NCBI GenBank assembly: GCA_025937235.1
Contig: JAICRU010000020.1
Span: forward strand, 1-42,140
DNA: 42,140 nt
Direction: 5' to 3'
Source of the DNA: Acidimicrobiia bacterium
GTDB lineage: Bacteria; Actinomycetota; Acidimicrobiia; Spongiisociales; ZC4RG35
Below, piece after piece: positions 10,423-20,369 of the stretch (its first letter is position 1; each line of letters starts with the position of its first letter). The notes below the pieces were generated by a model, which was given only the letters and a program-made list of their open reading frames with translations, had not been told where the DNA came from and made no database searches. The position numbers were made by a program, and so were the translations under genes.

Positions 10423-12555
10423 ATGACGTGCGCCACCTGTGCCGTGCGCATCGAACGGGTCCTGGGACGACAAGAGGGTGTCGAGGCCGCCAACGTCAAC
10501 CTGGCGGGCGCAACCGCGCTGGTCCGGGTGGACGACAGCGCAGATATCGACGCACTCCGGACGGCAGTCAGCAAGCTGGGCTATTCCATCTCGCCACACG
10601 CCGGCGATCAGCCAAGGGACATGGCCGAGCAGTACCAGGGTGACGCCATGGCGCAGTGGAGACTCTTCTGGGTCGCCGCCGCGCTCACCCTCCCGACCAT
10701 GTTGCTCTCCATGTTCGGCCCCGATGAGACGTGGAGTCGTCTCGCCCAGGCCCTCCTGGTCACACCGGTGGTTCTTTGGTGTGGATGGCAGTTTCACCGC
10801 GTGGCGGTGCGCCAGGCCCGTCACGGAAGCGCCAACATGGACACACTCATCTCACTGGGCTCGCTGGCCGCGTATCTCTACTCCATCTGGGCGCTGTCTA
10901 ACGGAGCGCATGTCTTCTTCGAGACCGCCGGGGTCATCATCACCCTCATCGTCCTGGGACGCGCCCTGGAGGCGAGGGCGAAGGGGAGCGCCTCCGCTGC
11001 CGTCCATCGTCTGCTCGAACTGGGAGCGACCGAGGCCCGGGTCAGGTCGGCAGAAGGCGATCAAATGGTCCCGATCGGGAAGATCATCCCTGGAGACCTG
11101 ATGGTGGTCCTCCCCGGGGAGAAGATCCCCACCGACGGGTTGGTGATGGCAGGAGCATCGTCGGTAGACGAAGCAATGCTGACCGGAGAGTCGCTCCCGA
11201 TCGACAAGAGACCCGGTGACACCGTGTTCGGAGCCACGATCAACCAGGCGGGTCGTCTCGAGGTTCGCGCCACTGCAGTCGGGTCCGACACGGTCCTGGC
11301 GGGGATCGTGCGAATGGTGGAGCAGGCGCAGGGATCCAAGGCGCCCATCCAGCGTCTCGCCGATCGGGTCGCTTCGATATTCGTACCCGTCGTGATGCTC
11401 TTAGCCCTCATCACAACCGGGGTCTGGCTGGTCCTGGGGAATACAGTCGACCAGGCCGTCCAGGCCGGCGTGGCGGTGCTGATCATTGCCTGCCCTTGCG
11501 CCCTCGGACTCGCCACCCCCACCGCCATCATGGTGGGAAGTGGACGCGGCGCGGAGCTCGGCATCCTCTTCAAACGAGCGGAGGTATTCGAGACCGCGGG
11601 CCATGTGGACACTGTCGTCTTCGACAAGACAGGGACACTCACGACCGGGGCAATGTCCCTCACCGACCTCCACAGCGATGTGCCGGTCGAGGAATTCCTC
11701 CGGCTGATCGCCCCAGTCGAAGCAGCCTCTGGGCACCCGATCGGCATGGCCGTTGCGCTCGGTGCCGACGAAGCGGGAGTGGATCTCCTCGACGCGGAGC
11801 GTGTCGAGAGCCTGGCCGGGCTTGGTGTGATCGGGGTGGTGGATGGGCATGAAGTGATCGTGGGCAAGGAGAAGCTCCTGGCCGACCGCGGTGTCGCCAT
11901 CCCGGAGAAGTGGTCGGCCGAGATGGGGCGACTCGAAGACGAGGGCAAGACCGCATTCCTGGCGGGCTGGGACGGGGAAGCGACCGGTGTGATCGCCGTT
12001 TCGGACTCTGTCCGGGAGGGGGCCATGGCCGCGGTGGCCGGCCTACATGCGGGAGGAATCGAGACCATCATGGTCACCGGCGACAACCGAAGGACCGCCG
12101 AGAGGATCGGGGCGAGGATCGGCATCCCCACGGTCCGGGCGGAGGTCCTGCCCGGCGAGAAGGCGGATCAGGTGGCCCTCCTCCAGGCGGGCGGTCGCGT
12201 CGTGGGATTCGTGGGCGACGGTCTGAACGACGCCCCGGCGCTGATTCGGTCCGATCTCGGGTTGGCAATCGGCACGGGCACGGCGGTGGCGGTGGAAGCG
12301 GGAGACGTCGTCCTGCTCAACCCGGACCCTCGCCTCGCCCCGGTGGCGATCGACCTGGCCGAGACCACTCTCGGCACCATCCGACAGAACCTGGTCTGGG
12401 CCTTCGGCTACAACACGGCGGCGATCCCGATCGCCGCAGTCGGCCTCCTCGACCCGATGATCGCCGCGGCGGCCATGGCATTGTCGTCCGTATCGGTGGT
12501 GCTCAATGCCTTGCGCCTGCGTCGGTATCGACCCGACGCTTCGTTGAACCTCTAG
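10423..12555 (+). CDS. copA: copper-exporting P1B-type ATPase
   Basis: The 710 residues from the first ATG contain most of an HMA domain (MTCATC, C3/C6). They also contain TGES (254-257), the transmembrane CPC metal site (C357-P-C359), the phosphorylation site DKTGT (D401), SGHP and GDGLNDAP. It exports Cu(I) at the cell membrane. The first HMA beta strand (TVLFDVEG) is encoded upstream of the ATG in the same frame. That frame is open back to a TAG at 10288 but has no ATG, GTG or TTG. Joined to the upstream HMA domain the product would be about 807 residues, close to two-HMA CopA proteins such as that of Bacillus subtilis. Confidence 0.93.
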
Positions 12556-13482: not shown

Positions 13483-13572
13483 TCACTTCCGCTTGTGGCG
13501 ATTCGCCTTGAGACGCTTGCGGTACTTGTGTTTCGACATCTTCTTGCGACGCTTCTTGACCAACGATCCCAT
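13483..13572 (-). CDS. bS22-like / AURKAIP1-COX24 domain ribosomal protein, 29 residues
   Basis: The reading frame encodes 29 residues beginning MGSLVKKRRKKMSKHKYRKR and ending in more Arg/Lys/His. This matches the MGSxxKKRRKRMxKxKxRK pattern of the very small actinobacterial ribosomal protein bS22, related to the mitochondrial AURKAIP1/COX24 domain. GAGG lies seven bases upstream of the ATG, and a good promoter (TTGAAT, 17 nt, GACCAT) lies just before. More than half the residues are basic, as expected for an rRNA-binding peptide. Confidence 0.85.
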   Translation of the reverse strand: MGSLVKKRRKKMSKHKYRKRLKANRHKRK

Positions 13573-13607
13573 GAAAAAACCTCGGTTCCGAAAGGGGAGA
13601 CGGCTCC

Positions 13608-13656: not shown

Positions 13657-14427
13657 TCAGTCGGCGCTGCCAATCGACCTTGCCAGAGCCAACGCCTGTT
13701 GGAGAGGGAGCGTGGTCTCGATCCGGTGAGTCACGCCTGCCCTCTCCCACATCAAGACGTTGCCGGCCAGTCGCGTTTCTTCTTCTACGACCTTCCCGGC
13801 GGCGTCCTCGTAGGTGATGGCATGCGGTGCCCCGTCGATCCACAGACCAAGGATCCCGGCGATGTCGACCGCTCTCACCCCGTTCTCCGGTCGAACGCTC
13901 TTGACAAAGAGCTCATTCTCGGCCAGATCGAGCTCGAACTGGCTGTGGATCAAGCCGACATCCGCTTCCCCGGCCGCGGGCAGCGTCTCGTCTCCCCGCC
14001 ACACCATCGAGACCCTGCCTTCGGAAGGCCGCGGGGATAGATAGATCGCATCGGGCTGCCCGAGGGAATCGATGAGCGACAAATCGAAGTCGACTGCAGT
14101 CTGAGCCTCTTCCAAGGTGACGACCTCTCCCAGGTCGAGCTCTGCGCCCACCGGAGGCTCCATTCCGGGGTCGAAGCGGACTTCGATCCCGGCCACACCG
14201 AGCAGATCAGCCACCGCCTGCCGTGCTCCAGGCGACAACAGGAAAACCGATGCGACGATCAGGATGATGGCGGCCGTCGCTGACACCCAACGGAGCCGTC
14301 GTTGCGGCCGGGTCGGGGCCGAAAGCCGACGCAGGACGGCTGGCACCTGGTCGGGGTGCTCGGGCCAGTCGATCTGCTCGCCGAGCCGGTAGAGCATGGA
14401 TTCGATCGCTCTCGAGCCGTCAGTCAT
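13657..14427 (-). CDS. membrane-anchored probable anti-sigma partner of the ECF sigma factor
   Basis: The 256-residue protein has a short cytoplasmic N-terminal region (1-43), one membrane helix (about 46-64, ATAAIILIVASVFLL) and a large extracytoplasmic part. Its position directly after an ECF sigma gene, overlapping it by eight bases, and its single-pass topology fit an anti-sigma factor or sensor. No HxxxCxxC zinc anti-sigma motif is seen, so this is inferred from context. The external part resembles DUF4367-type lipoprotein-like domains only loosely. Confidence 0.7.
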   Translation of the reverse strand: MTDGSRAIESMLYRLGEQIDWPEHPDQVPAVLRRLSAPTRPQRRLRWVSATAAIILIVASVFLLSPGARQAVADLLGVAGIEVRFDPGMEPPVGAELDLGEVVTLEEAQTAVDFDLSLIDSLGQPDAIYLSPRPSEGRVSMVWRGDETLPAAGEADVGLIHSQFELDLAENELFVKSVRPENGVRAVDIAGILGLWIDGAPHAITYEDAAGKVVEEETRLAGNVLMWERAGVTHRIETTLPLQQALALARSIGSAD

Positions 14428-14992
14428 CGCGATCCTCCTTCAACTCGATGAGGTTCGACTCCAGCCTGTCCAAGGCACGGGCGGTGCGCGACTTGACCGT
14501 CCCAACGGGGACCCCGAGAGCCGCAGCCGTCTCCGCCTCGCTCAGACCGAGCAGATATCGGAGGCTCACGATGTCCCGGTAATGAGCTGGTAGATCGGCT
14601 ACGGCGGCGAGCACCGTCTCCCGCTCCACCCCCGCTATGACCGTCGTCTCGGGAGATGGGGCCGCACCTCCCGAGACGGGGTCATGGGCCAGACGCAGGC
14701 TGAGCCGCTCCTGGCGACCCTTTCGGCGACGTTGGTTCAGGGCCTCGTTCCTGACTATTCGGAGCAACCACGGTCGGAATGCAGCGTCGTCACGAAACCG
14801 GGGCAGACCCCGAAAGGCCTTGACGAACGCATCCTGGGTCACGTCTTCGGCCATGCTGCCATCCCACACGACCAGATGGGCCACGCGCAGGGCGATCTGC
14901 TGATGTGACCTGACCAACATCTCGAACGCGGCGACATCGCCATTCTTCGCTCTGAGGATCAGTTCTTGCTCGTTCAGTGGGCGGCCCTCCAC
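14420..14992 (-). CDS. ECF RNA polymerase sigma factor
   Basis: The 190-residue protein has a sigma-70 region 2 (about 20-90, with AEDVTQDAFVKAF and FRPWLLRIVRNEALNQRRR) and a region 4 helix-turn-helix (about 125-180, LRYLLGLSEAETAAALGVPVGTVKSRTARAL). Region 3 is absent, as in ECF factors. GTG 14992 is taken as the start; it follows the putative -10 TGTATC (15013-15008) by about 15 bases. The promoter GGAACC-16-TGTATC is ECF-type and suggests autoregulation. The gene overlaps the downstream membrane protein gene. Confidence 0.92.
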   Translation of the reverse strand: MEGRPLNEQELILRAKNGDVAAFEMLVRSHQQIALRVAHLVVWDGSMAEDVTQDAFVKAFRGLPRFRDDAAFRPWLLRIVRNEALNQRRRKGRQERLSLRLAHDPVSGGAAPSPETTVIAGVERETVLAAVADLPAHYRDIVSLRYLLGLSEAETAAALGVPVGTVKSRTARALDRLESNLIELKEDRDD

Positions 14993-15007
14993 CGACTTTT
15001 GGCAATT

Positions 15008-15035
15008 GATACACCGGGGAGGCCGAATCGGTTCC
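15008..15035 (-). promoter_or_regulatory. ECF-type promoter of the sigma factor operon
   Basis: On the minus strand GGAACC (15035-15030) is followed after exactly 16 bases by TGTATC (15013-15008). It mirrors the plus-strand promoter next to it. Confidence 0.6.
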
Positions 15036-15046
15036 GATCTGGAACC
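15030..15046. promoter_or_regulatory. inverted repeat formed by two back-to-back ECF -35 elements
   Basis: GGTTCC, five bases, GGAACC. The two halves are the -35 elements of the divergent promoters. The dyad could also bind a dimeric regulator. Confidence 0.5.
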
Positions 15047-15068
15047 TCAGACCGAGGTCCGGTGTAGG
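15041..15068 (+). promoter_or_regulatory. ECF-type promoter of the secreted protein-cytochrome c-cupredoxin operon
   Basis: GGAACC (15041-15046), 16 bases, TGTAGG (15063-15068). It has the same -35, the same spacing and the same TGTA core as the sigma operon promoter facing the other way. Confidence 0.6.
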
Positions 15069-15094
15069 GAATCACGACGAACCGAGGAGGTTTG

Positions 15095-15607
15095 ATGAGA
15101 CGTCGGATCCGCCTGGTCATCCCGGCCGCCTTGATCCTCATGACGATCGCCGCTCCCGCGTTAGGGGGCGGAGTGACGGTGGTCAACTTCACCGAGGTCC
15201 CGCCTGACTTCGAGGCGGGGACCCCATACCGGCTCGACTACTCGATTCTGGGTCACGGCGTGGAACCGATGGACGTGGGCCATTCGACACTCCAGTTCCA
15301 CGGTCCGGGTGGGGAAACGGTGATCTTCCCGGCCGAATCGACCGCCAAGGGCCAGTGGACGGCCGAGGTCGTCCTCCCCACCGCCGGTGAGTGGCGATGG
15401 GAGGTCCTTGCCGGCTCTGAGGTGATGCAGACACTGGGCACCTTGTCGGTGGAGCCCGCTCGGGAGGCAATTCCGGCGGGGCTGATGGATTCCCTCCGTC
15501 TTGGTCTGCCCATCGCCACTCTGCTGGCACTCATACTCCTGGTGACCGAAATCAGGTCACGGTCACGGACCGAGAGGCAGCCCGCGGCTGCGGCCGATGT
15601 GGCCTGA
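15095..15607 (+). CDS. secreted, C-terminally membrane-anchored hypothetical protein
   Basis: The 170-residue protein has an N-terminal signal peptide (RRRIRLVIPAALILMTIAAPALG, roughly residues 2-24, ending near ALGGG). An extracytoplasmic beta-rich domain of about 100 residues follows, then a C-terminal membrane helix (about 138-156, GLPIATLLALILLV) and a short basic tail. The beta domain (YRLDYSILGHGVEPM, GQWTAEVVLPTAGEW) vaguely resembles FixH/YtkA- or CopC-like folds but I cannot assign it. GAGGAGG (15084-15090) supports ATG 15095. It overlaps the cytochrome c gene by 11 bases. Confidence 0.78.
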   Translation: MRRRIRLVIPAALILMTIAAPALGGGVTVVNFTEVPPDFEAGTPYRLDYSILGHGVEPMDVGHSTLQFHGPGGETVIFPAESTAKGQWTAEVVLPTAGEWRWEVLAGSEVMQTLGTLSVEPAREAIPAGLMDSLRLGLPIATLLALILLVTEIRSRSRTERQPAAAADVA

Positions 15608-15992
15608 TCGGATCGGCACTGTCCTCACCGCCGTCATCGTGGTCCTGCTCGCCGGGGCCACGGTGGCGGTCTATGCCTACGACCCCGTCGACAACACGGC
15701 GACCGTGGAGCCGGTCGATGGGCGGACCGTCTTCCTCACCAAAGGCTGTACGGGCTGTCACAGCATCGACGGTGTCTCCGAGACAGGGCAGATCGGACCG
15801 AATCTGACCGGGTTGCCTGATCGCGCCGGCGAGAGAGTCGACGGCCTGTCGGCAGGGGAGTACGTCAGACAGTCCGTGCTGGAGCCCCAGGCCTACATCG
15901 TGAGTGGATACGGGGAGTTGATGCCCACGTTGCCCCTGGACACCGATGAGCTCGATGCTCTGGTGGAGTTCCTGCTCGATCCGGGCACCTGA
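15597..15992 (+). CDS. membrane-anchored class I cytochrome c
   Basis: The 131-residue protein has an N-terminal signal anchor (about 6-28) and one haem-binding site CTGCH (C51, C54, H55) in the context RTVFLTKGCTGCHSIDG. The likely axial methionine is in YGELMP (M109). IGPNLTGLPDRAG and the C-terminal TDELDALVEFLL helix are typical of small class I cytochromes c. It should face the outside of the membrane and carry electrons. The start overlaps the preceding gene, so the two are co-translated. Confidence 0.9.
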   Translation: MWPDRIGTVLTAVIVVLLAGATVAVYAYDPVDNTATVEPVDGRTVFLTKGCTGCHSIDGVSETGQIGPNLTGLPDRAGERVDGLSAGEYVRQSVLEPQAYIVSGYGELMPTLPLDTDELDALVEFLLDPGT

Positions 15993-16027
15993 GCTCGACC
16001 ACAACGCCACCGGCTCGAACATCAGGG

Positions 16028-16353
16028 ATGTCCCCGAACCGATCGGGCCACGTTCACCCTGGGCGTTCTCCTGGCCGCCTGTGTCGACGACCTGCCCACG
16101 ACCCCCCGCCGGTGACCGAGAGCCCGACCGTCACGACGCGGACATGCAGTTCACCCCGAGCCACGTGACCATCGAGGCAGATGACACCGTGACCTGGATC
16201 TGGGACGACGGGAGCATGCCCCACGACGTGTCGGGCGACGGGTACGGGAGTGAAGTCAAATCGAGGGATCGCACCTTCGACGATCCTGGGGACTACCCGT
16301 ACGTCTGCACCCTGCATTCGGGCATGAGCGGGGCGGTGACTGTCGAGGGCTGA
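16028..16353 (+). pseudogene. cupredoxin (plastocyanin-like) lipoprotein interrupted by frame changes
   Basis: The copper-binding domain is intact in one frame from about 16141: MQFTPSHVTIEADDTVTWIW leads the domain, and the type 1 copper ligands are H27 in MPHDV and C55, H58, M61 in YVCTLHSGM (counted from M at 16144). The lipoprotein signal LGVLLAACVDD is in another frame (16059-16091), and a PPPVTESPTVTT linker is in a third (16103-16138). The first change falls at a run of six C (16102-16107) and the second near 16139. Either the gene is broken or single bases are missing from the sequence. It is the last gene of the secreted protein-cytochrome c operon. Confidence 0.65.
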
Positions 16354-19212: not shown

Positions 19213-19824
19213 TCAGGCTCCGAAGGCCTGCTCGAAGGCGGCTCGGAACTCGGGCGTCGAAGGACCGCTGAAGCCGCAGTAGTTGACGTTCCCGTCGAAT
19301 GCGGTGATCAGATACTGGCCCCCAACCTCGAACGGGAAGCCGGCGATCAGTGCCTCCATCCCGGCCGGTGCATGCAGCACAACCTGACCGGCGTCACCGC
19401 CCTTGAACCACTCGTCGACATCGAGAGTGACCGTCTCGCCCTCCACGGCGGTCACGGTCCCCTCGAAGGCGACCTCCATCTTGGCCAATTCCTCGACGCT
19501 GAACATGATGCACATCGCCATCGGGTCCTCACCGCCGGCGTTCAATTGGAGCGGCGGGCCCGAGGCGGCAGGTTCCTCAGCGGGGTCGCCACCTGTCAGT
19601 GCGATCGCCCCACCCACCGCGATGACCAGGGCGGCTGCCGCCGCCACCCCCACCAGCCAGCGGTTGGACTTGGGCTCCGGTGCCGCCGGGGGCTGGTCGG
19701 TGACTGGTGTGCTCATGATTCCCTCCAGGAGATTTCGTGACGATTTGGTCGTCAAGGGCTCGGTTCCGACGCCGGGATGCATCGGATCGAGACGGGCTAG
19801 CCGTTCGCGTAGCTGGTCTGTCAT
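19213..19824 (-). CDS. single-pass membrane protein encoded with an ECF sigma factor (probable anti-sigma)
   Basis: The 203-residue protein has a cytoplasmic N-terminal region of about 54 residues, one membrane helix (about 56-76, WLVGVAAAAALVIAVGGAIAL), a Pro/Ala linker and an external domain with two cysteines (MAMCIMF and VNYCGF) that could form a disulfide. The ATGA overlap with the upstream ECF sigma gene suggests an anti-sigma role. No known anti-sigma motif is visible, so this rests on context and topology. Confidence 0.65.
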   Translation of the reverse strand: MTDQLRERLARLDPMHPGVGTEPLTTKSSRNLLEGIMSTPVTDQPPAAPEPKSNRWLVGVAAAAALVIAVGGAIALTGGDPAEEPAASGPPLQLNAGGEDPMAMCIMFSVEELAKMEVAFEGTVTAVEGETVTLDVDEWFKGGDAGQVVLHAPAGMEALIAGFPFEVGGQYLITAFDGNVNYCGFSGPSTPEFRAAFEQAFGA

Positions 19825-20369
19825 CCTCGATCCTCCTCGGCGTTTTCACCCTCTTTGTGTCCGGTCGCAGAGGGATCCTGTCGGGTCAAAGCATCGGAGA
19901 GCTTCTTTCTGGCGCGGCTGAGACGGAGGCTGACGGCATTGGCGGTGCTCCCCAACACACGTGCGATCTCACGCGGCTCGAGCTGCTCCCAGGCCCAGAG
20001 CCTTAGCACCTCCTGGTCGGCGGGTGGGAGCGAGGCGAAGGCGGTGGCCAGCTCGGGGTCTTCGATGGTATCGGCCGGGTCAATTACGAGCACCGGTCTT
20101 TGCGACTCGAGACGCTCCACCAGTCGCAAGTGACGTGCCGCCGACCGTCGCTGATTGGCCAGAGTGCGACGGGCCACGCCATATGACCAGGGAAGAACCG
20201 CCTCCTCGGGCACCTCGTCGAGACGACGCCATAACGTCAGCAGGACATCGGCCAGCGCGTCAGAAGCTTCTTCGCCCGATGTTCGGCGACGCAGATAGCG
20301 CTGCAAGGGGTCGTAGATGTCGGCTACAGCCGCCTCGTAACGGGCTCGCCGTGCGCCTTCGGAGCTCAC
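19821..20369 (-). CDS. ECF RNA polymerase sigma factor
   Basis: The 182-residue protein has region 2 at about 12-80 (ADIYDPLQRYLRRRTSGEEASDALADVLLTLWRR, PWSYGVARRTLANQRR) and region 4 at about 110-165 (LPPADQEVLRLWAWEQLEPREIARVLGSTANAVSLRLSRARKKL). The start is GTG 20369. It is followed by its membrane partner with a four-base overlap. It is only distantly similar to the sigma factor at 14420. Two AGGATTCT direct repeats lie 25-55 bases upstream. Confidence 0.9.
   Translation of the reverse strand: MSSEGARRARYEAAVADIYDPLQRYLRRRTSGEEASDALADVLLTLWRRLDEVPEEAVLPWSYGVARRTLANQRRSAARHLRLVERLESQRPVLVIDPADTIEDPELATAFASLPPADQEVLRLWAWEQLEPREIARVLGSTANAVSLRLSRARKKLSDALTRQDPSATGHKEGENAEEDRG

Follow-up and report, generated by a model that had tools for sequence, protein, structure and literature searches.

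An ECF sigma factor encoded in the analyzed window (the whole 42,140-nucleotide stretch of Acidimicrobiia DNA) very probably activates its own operon as well as two neighboring envelope genes, as judged from the sequence conservation of two back-to-back promoters located between them. The favored reading, considered fairly probable, is that these genes form a local, autoregulated ECF module whose output, a YtkA-like protein and a cytochrome c, maintains extracytoplasmic electron transfer. The gene content, the promoter conservation, the linkage of the genes, and the broken state of a cupredoxin gene are read directly from the DNA. The regulatory mechanism is ordinary for ECF modules; the composition of the module is new, and a conserved element lies at the sigma start codon. 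An uncharacterized ECF family thereby gains a testable promoter code, a cognate anti-sigma factor, and a recurring envelope output in uncultured Actinomycetota, where regulation is little known.

The sigma gene (14420..14992, minus strand) and the divergent YtkA-like gene (15095..15607, plus strand) are separated by exactly 102 bases (14993-15094). On the minus strand of this gap, GGAACC (15035-15030) is followed after 16 bases by TGTATC and, on the plus strand, GGAACC (15041-15046) is followed after 16 bases by TGTAGG, which bears out to the base the two promoters of identical design described in the initial annotation. Both sites are better represented by the common form GGAACC-N14-GGTGTA, with GGTGTA as the shared −10 element. 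Motif searches and orthologous gaps place the promoter of the sigma/anti-sigma operon at 15010..15035 (minus strand), with 17 nt between the end of the −10 element and the GTG start codon, and the promoter of the ytkA-like/cytochrome c operon at 15041..15066 (plus strand). The loose pattern GGAACC-N15..17-TGTA has two matches in the window, where shuffling predicts 0.09.

To assess conservation, the eight divergent sigma/YtkA gaps available in the family (the window and seven others) were compared. The mirrored motif is present on both strands of every gap, giving 16 of 16 sites versus 0.001 expected from 3000 dinucleotide shuffles. The GGAACC/TGTA pattern, whose conservation the initial annotation had proposed to check, thus precedes both genes in all seven other divergent gaps, and it is also found upstream of sigma orthologues in other classes. 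The promoters are conserved even though the YtkA proteins of the other gaps are only 28-76% identical to that of the window, and even though the PAC2, cimA, Cu-ATPase, and M3 genes that flank the module here do not adjoin it outside the genus. This conservation makes it very likely that one sigma factor drives both transcripts, as originally suggested. The dyad GGTTCC-N5-GGAACC formed by the two −35 boxes is present in the window as well, but its 5-bp spacing is not a family feature: the hexamers are separated by 0, 1, 4, 5, 5, 9, 11, and 13 bp in the eight gaps. A single palindromic operator was rejected on account of this variation, and the conserved element is therefore a pair of abutting promoters rather than a dyad. 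From the size of the polymerase footprint, two holoenzymes probably do not occupy both promoters at once; with −35 boxes so close together, feedback and output would therefore compete.

The reach of the motif was then evaluated across the genome to which the window belongs. The loose form is not enriched genome-wide (11 matches versus 19 in the reversed control). The strict form, GGAACY-N14-GGTGTA, has four matches versus none in the control, comprising the two gap promoters and one sequence that lies within a coding frame on two contigs (C24 and C111). One-mismatch sites show no excess (25 versus 26 in the reversed control). With these sites at background and the remaining strict match inside a coding frame, a broad regulon was rejected for this genome, and the regulon appears from the sequence to be local.

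The sigma gene has a GTG start (VEGRPL...) and encodes a 190-aa protein whose only regions are sigma2 (PF04542, residues 26-93; Sigma70_r2, 4.7e-17) and sigma4 (PF08281, residues 125-177; Sigma70_r4_2, 2.6e-15), the composition of ECF (group IV) factors; its orthologues are 53-83% identical. Two further hallmarks of ECF factors are suggested by sequence, namely a GGAAC-type −35 element before its own gene, conserved across classes, and a putative co-transcribed cognate anti-sigma gene, which overlaps it and encodes a transmembrane protein. When the sigma alignment was scanned against 84,980 species genomes, approximately 50 close relatives were recovered from Acidimicrobiia, Thermoleophilia/Gaiellales, and MAGs named Chloroflexi, nearly all of which carry GGAAC[C/T/G]-N14-GGTGTA with a −10 element ending 8-21 nt before the GTG. 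The protein shares its fold with the actinobacterial SigM/SigE-type ECF models of NCBIfam and scores 68-128 bits against many models, but it differs from the named sigma factors in that no equivalog cut-off (SigM, SigE, SigW, SigK, RpoE) was reached among the models shown: the best score was 128 bits versus a cut-off of 204 (PRK11922), and SigM scored 110.7 versus 190. No paper on this sigma family was found in the literature searched, which lay outside the main ECF reclassification paper, where the family may already be numbered. That both gap sites are read by some other sigma factor is highly improbable. GGAAC −35 elements are common to many ECF factors, and the genome contains further ECF genes (e.g., 19821-20369); against this, the motif tracks the present family across classes, at the sigma gene and at linked genes and in several arrangements, as expected of an autoregulated ECF factor.

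The membrane protein that the initial annotation had paired with the sigma factor is assigned by alignment as a single-pass membrane anti-sigma factor (13657..14427, minus strand; 8-nt overlap with the sigma gene). The pair recurs across Acidimicrobiia, Thermoleophilia, and 'Chloroflexi' MAGs, with the anti-sigma gene directly after the sigma gene in nearly all loci whose following gene is covered. Several Thermoleophilia-type loci (L095-L098, L102, and L113) also carry an lgt-like gene near the pair, and a conserved protein of ~66 aa with no Pfam match beside it. The anti-sigma factor has a short cytoplasmic N-terminus with a conserved 'DWP', one transmembrane helix, and an extracytoplasmic domain, and DUF4367 is weakly matched in two of eight orthologues. 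The alignment contains no cysteine, which rules out a thiol-based switch in this protein, and no obvious metal site. In the structural model (pLDDT 68), residues 103-256 align best with the C-terminal domains of RseB/MucB (Z 9.2 over 94 residues, 14% identity), which account for the six best rows of the comparison, the next best hit having a Z of 6.2; Foldseek alone returned nothing significant for this model (E > 0.05), and a PDB sequence search nothing useful. The combination of an ECF factor with a membrane anti-sigma factor and an RseB/MucB-C-like domain, the last in a predicted model, is reminiscent of RpoE-RseA-RseB in E. coli and AlgU-MucA-MucB in Pseudomonas. Here, in contrast, the predicted domain is fused to the anti-sigma factor itself, no separate RseB is present, and the regulon appears tiny and local.

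On the other side of the gap, the YtkA-like gene begins at ATG 15095, behind a Shine-Dalgarno sequence AGGAGG (15085..15090, plus strand), which corrects the start originally given for this secreted-protein gene. Its product consists of a signal peptide, an Ig-like beta domain, and a C-terminal transmembrane helix. The assignment is drawn from orthologues, structural modeling, and alignment: PF13115 is matched by seven of nine members (best 2.3e-8), while the window protein alone remains below the cut-off (E 0.17). The AlphaFold model (pLDDT 81) resembles filamin/Ig-like folds, a PDB sequence search gave nothing useful, and the invariant residues include H54-G55-x2-P58, with H54 as the sole invariant histidine. 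The cytochrome c gene (15597..15992, plus strand), which overlaps the ytkA-like gene by 11 nt, encodes a membrane-anchored class I protein (PF00034, 6.6e-8) with CTGCH near the N-terminus and a distal MP providing the methionine ligand; C51, C54, H55, M109, and P110 are invariant in eight orthologues. The YtkA protein CtaK of Bacillus, a lipoprotein, has been implicated in assembling the CuA center of the caa3 oxidase (PMC13344008). Both CtaK and the YtkA domain of YcnJ in Bacillus subtilis resemble the window protein in being membrane-attached extracytoplasmic YtkA-like domains. Unlike the lipoprotein CtaK, however, the window protein is anchored by a C-terminal transmembrane helix, is paired with a cytochrome c, and is probably under ECF control; a copper role is suggested here by analogy. 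The role of CtaK was deduced from genetics in Bacillus and may not hold for the window protein.

The type 1 copper protein that had been listed as the third member of this operon is encoded by a broken gene. In a sister species (G122), the cytochrome gene is followed by an intact gene for a lipoprotein cupredoxin (MEQRHNN...LAAC...CTLHSGM). Alignment with it shows that the window copy (16054..16353, plus strand) has a 97-nt gap around the start and signal region and additional single-base gaps, with the start and most of the signal peptide gone. The listed ORF at 15946-16353 fuses about 60 out-of-frame codons to the surviving cupredoxin domain, the in-frame part of which matches PF00127 (2.8e-10); an intact exported type 1 copper (PF00127) reading frame was not found in the window operon. 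The gene is best regarded as a remnant, barring assembly errors at the gaps. A cupredoxin is part of the operon only in this genus, none being present in the divergent YtkA-cytochrome operons outside it. The idea that other cupredoxins of the same genome are controlled by this sigma factor was rejected, as none of the fetched cupredoxin loci carries the motif.

Among relatives, the YtkA-like gene is linked to the sigma/anti-sigma pair in three arrangements: divergent from the sigma gene (eight loci), upstream and codirectional (L048, L049, L102, L107, and L114), and downstream of the anti-sigma gene (L111, L121, L124, L131, and L136). In L111, L114, L121, and L124, the YtkA-like gene has its own copy of the promoter. 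In G168, a finished genome from another family, the sigma, anti-sigma, YtkA, and cytochrome c genes follow one another collinearly at locus L290, preceded by a one-mismatch promoter. Parsimony on the sigma tree implies nine changes of arrangement, of which strongly supported branches alone force no more than one. Of 52 loci around related sigma factors, 30-odd have no YtkA gene visible within the stretch examined, and the output therefore differs between lineages. The YtkA type of this module is present in 12 of 395 genomes, and most of the class lacks the module. Two cupredoxin genes of relatives are preceded by the strict promoter, one directly behind the sigma/anti-sigma pair (L057) and one unlinked (L072, G114).

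The same promoter also directly precedes genes of the KGP family, secreted, transmembrane-anchored proteins with an AKGP..ATITGPG start and no Pfam match (L085 and L086 in G113, L080 in G119, L043 in G120, and L060 in G040), as well as an unrelated secreted protein (L078). It was found once each before the gene of a molybdopterin oxidoreductase (L068) and that of an amine oxidase (L079). Such targets bear on an alternative in which the sigma factor responds to general envelope stress, with misfolded protein or lipid stress as the signal, as for RseA/RseB, and the YtkA-like protein and cytochrome c as two of several envelope proteins. This alternative would accommodate the RseB/MucB-like domain predicted for the anti-sigma factor, the promoters before unrelated secreted proteins (the KGP genes of L085, L086, L080, and L060, and L078), and the lgt-like gene close by in several Thermoleophilia loci. 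It is nevertheless unlikely, given that no broad regulon is visible in the window's genome, where only the two linked strict promoters and the coding-frame sequence were found over a background level of one-mismatch sites.

By composition, the closest described system is that of Sinorhizobium meliloti RpoE4 (ECF26), which activates its own promoter and that of the sorT-cytochrome c (SMc04048)-azu2 operon (PMC3511301, PMC6527743). The initial claim that no sigma-controlled module of this composition had been described was thus overstated. In both systems, ECF and anti-sigma genes adjoin an operon that includes genes of the cytochrome c and blue copper protein types. The S. meliloti system differs in having sulfite dehydrogenase as its main enzyme, no YtkA protein, another promoter, and another gene arrangement. 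This likeness raises the alternative that the regulation is as proposed but the output proteins help to oxidize a small substrate, for example sulfite, with the cytochrome c accepting electrons from a molybdenum oxidoreductase. The ECF, anti-sigma, cytochrome c, and blue copper composition indeed corresponds to rpoE4/SMc04050/sorT/SMc04048/azu2 (PMC3511301). In G132, a strict promoter lies 57 nt before a PF00174 oxidoreductase gene (L068), another PF00174 gene is located near the sigma gene in L116, and the window cytochrome c scores on SoxX/SorU models, albeit below the cut-off. However, no PF00174 gene adjoins the module or belongs to its operon in the window, and the promoter is not the GGAAT/CGTC of RpoE4 (PMC6527743) but has a GGTGTA −10 element. 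Moreover, the promoter is missing, even at one mismatch, from all other PF00174 loci retrieved from nine relatives' genomes, among them four of the five in the window's genome. With the motif at only one of the fetched PF00174 loci, sulfite oxidase was rejected as a general partner, and the sulfite alternative is regarded as quite improbable.

The favored reading of a local module supporting extracytoplasmic electron transfer can be formulated as follows. The sigma and anti-sigma factors would be co-translated and, in the resting state, the anti-sigma factor would keep the sigma factor at the membrane. An envelope disturbance sensed by the RseB/MucB-C-like extracytoplasmic domain would free the sigma factor, which would then guide RNA polymerase to GGAACC-N14-GGTGTA, its presumed recognition sequence. 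From one of the back-to-back promoters, more sigma and anti-sigma factor would be produced as feedback and, from the other, the YtkA-like protein and the cytochrome c, both membrane-anchored. By analogy with CtaK in Bacillus, the YtkA-like protein may act in copper handling or in assembly of a metal center for a respiratory oxidase, with the cytochrome c as its electron carrier partner; some relatives would extend the output by a cupredoxin controlled from the same promoter. A copper/oxidase role of the output would, by this analogy, be the most likely; copper or redox stress is a candidate signal. With a cytochrome c beside the YtkA gene and cupredoxins in relatives, copper and electron-transfer upkeep would be the most economical function. 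The module may thus represent a sigma-based route to tune extracytoplasmic copper handling or electron transfer.

In addition to the promoter, nucleotide-level conservation revealed a dyad at the sigma start codon (GTGGAGGGCCGCCCAC at 14977..14992, minus strand; family consensus GTGGNGRRCCGNCCRC). It contains the start codon in all 52 genes that match the start pattern; eight further scanned relatives, most of them distant family members, failed to match. These 52 genes begin with GTG GNG RRC CGN CCR C, with one exception in which codon 2 is GAT. The proline of codon 5 is encoded by CCA in 45 genes, by CCG in 7, and never by CCC or CCT, as compared to 11% CCA and 41% CCC among proline codons in the remainder of the same genes. 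Codon 3 is GGC, GAC, or AGC, and codon 6 encodes Leu, Pro, or Arg. Because codon 3 always ends and codon 6 always begins with C, ordinary 5′ AT-rich codon bias was rejected as an explanation. A phylum scan for the promoter plus GTG-N5-CCG-N-CC yielded 13 matches in 12 of 396 genomes, two of them the window and G120, versus one match for the reversed control. All 13 open with GTGG and close with CCRC, which include bases outside the searched pattern, and elsewhere in nine genomes the dyad pattern is near background. The dyad thus reflects a nucleotide-level constraint. A possible GUGG/CCRC hairpin would enclose the start codon. Three of its five pairs never vary, and pair 5/12 occurs as A-U, U-A, and U-G variants and is unpaired in 19 of 42 sequences. 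It is tentatively proposed that the dyad provides a further layer of control from within the sigma coding sequence, acting as RNA or as DNA, by gating translation of the sigma factor or binding a regulator. With the −10 element ending so close to the GTG, many sigma transcripts would have little or no leader, and a hairpin at their very beginning would mask the start codon. The dyad is retained across Actinomycetota and 'Chloroflexi' MAGs, raising the question of whether conserved structures exist at the extreme 5′ end of leaderless ECF mRNAs. In one group of closely related 'Chloroflexi' MAGs (L127, L129, L130, L135, L137, and L138), the dyad is retained, the upstream box is CTGGTATGAAGG, and only a GGTA-like −10 element remains, possibly representing a shifted −10 specificity.

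Several neighboring genes were also noted. A copper-type P-ATPase gene (HMA domain, CPC motif; 10423-12555, plus strand) is located two genes from the module and also neighbors it in G122; in G123 (L050), where the M3 peptidase and PAC2 genes are closer together, no match was found within the stretch examined. A second ECF sigma gene (19821-20369, minus strand) overlaps a gene for a membrane protein with no Pfam match (19213-19824), and the two (19213-20369, minus strand) are probably another sigma/anti-sigma pair. Finally, a tiny basic ORF, MGSLVKKRRKKMSKHKYRKRLKANRHKRK, at about 13485-13573 (minus strand) presumably resembles the small ribosomal protein of the bS22/AURKAIP1 type.
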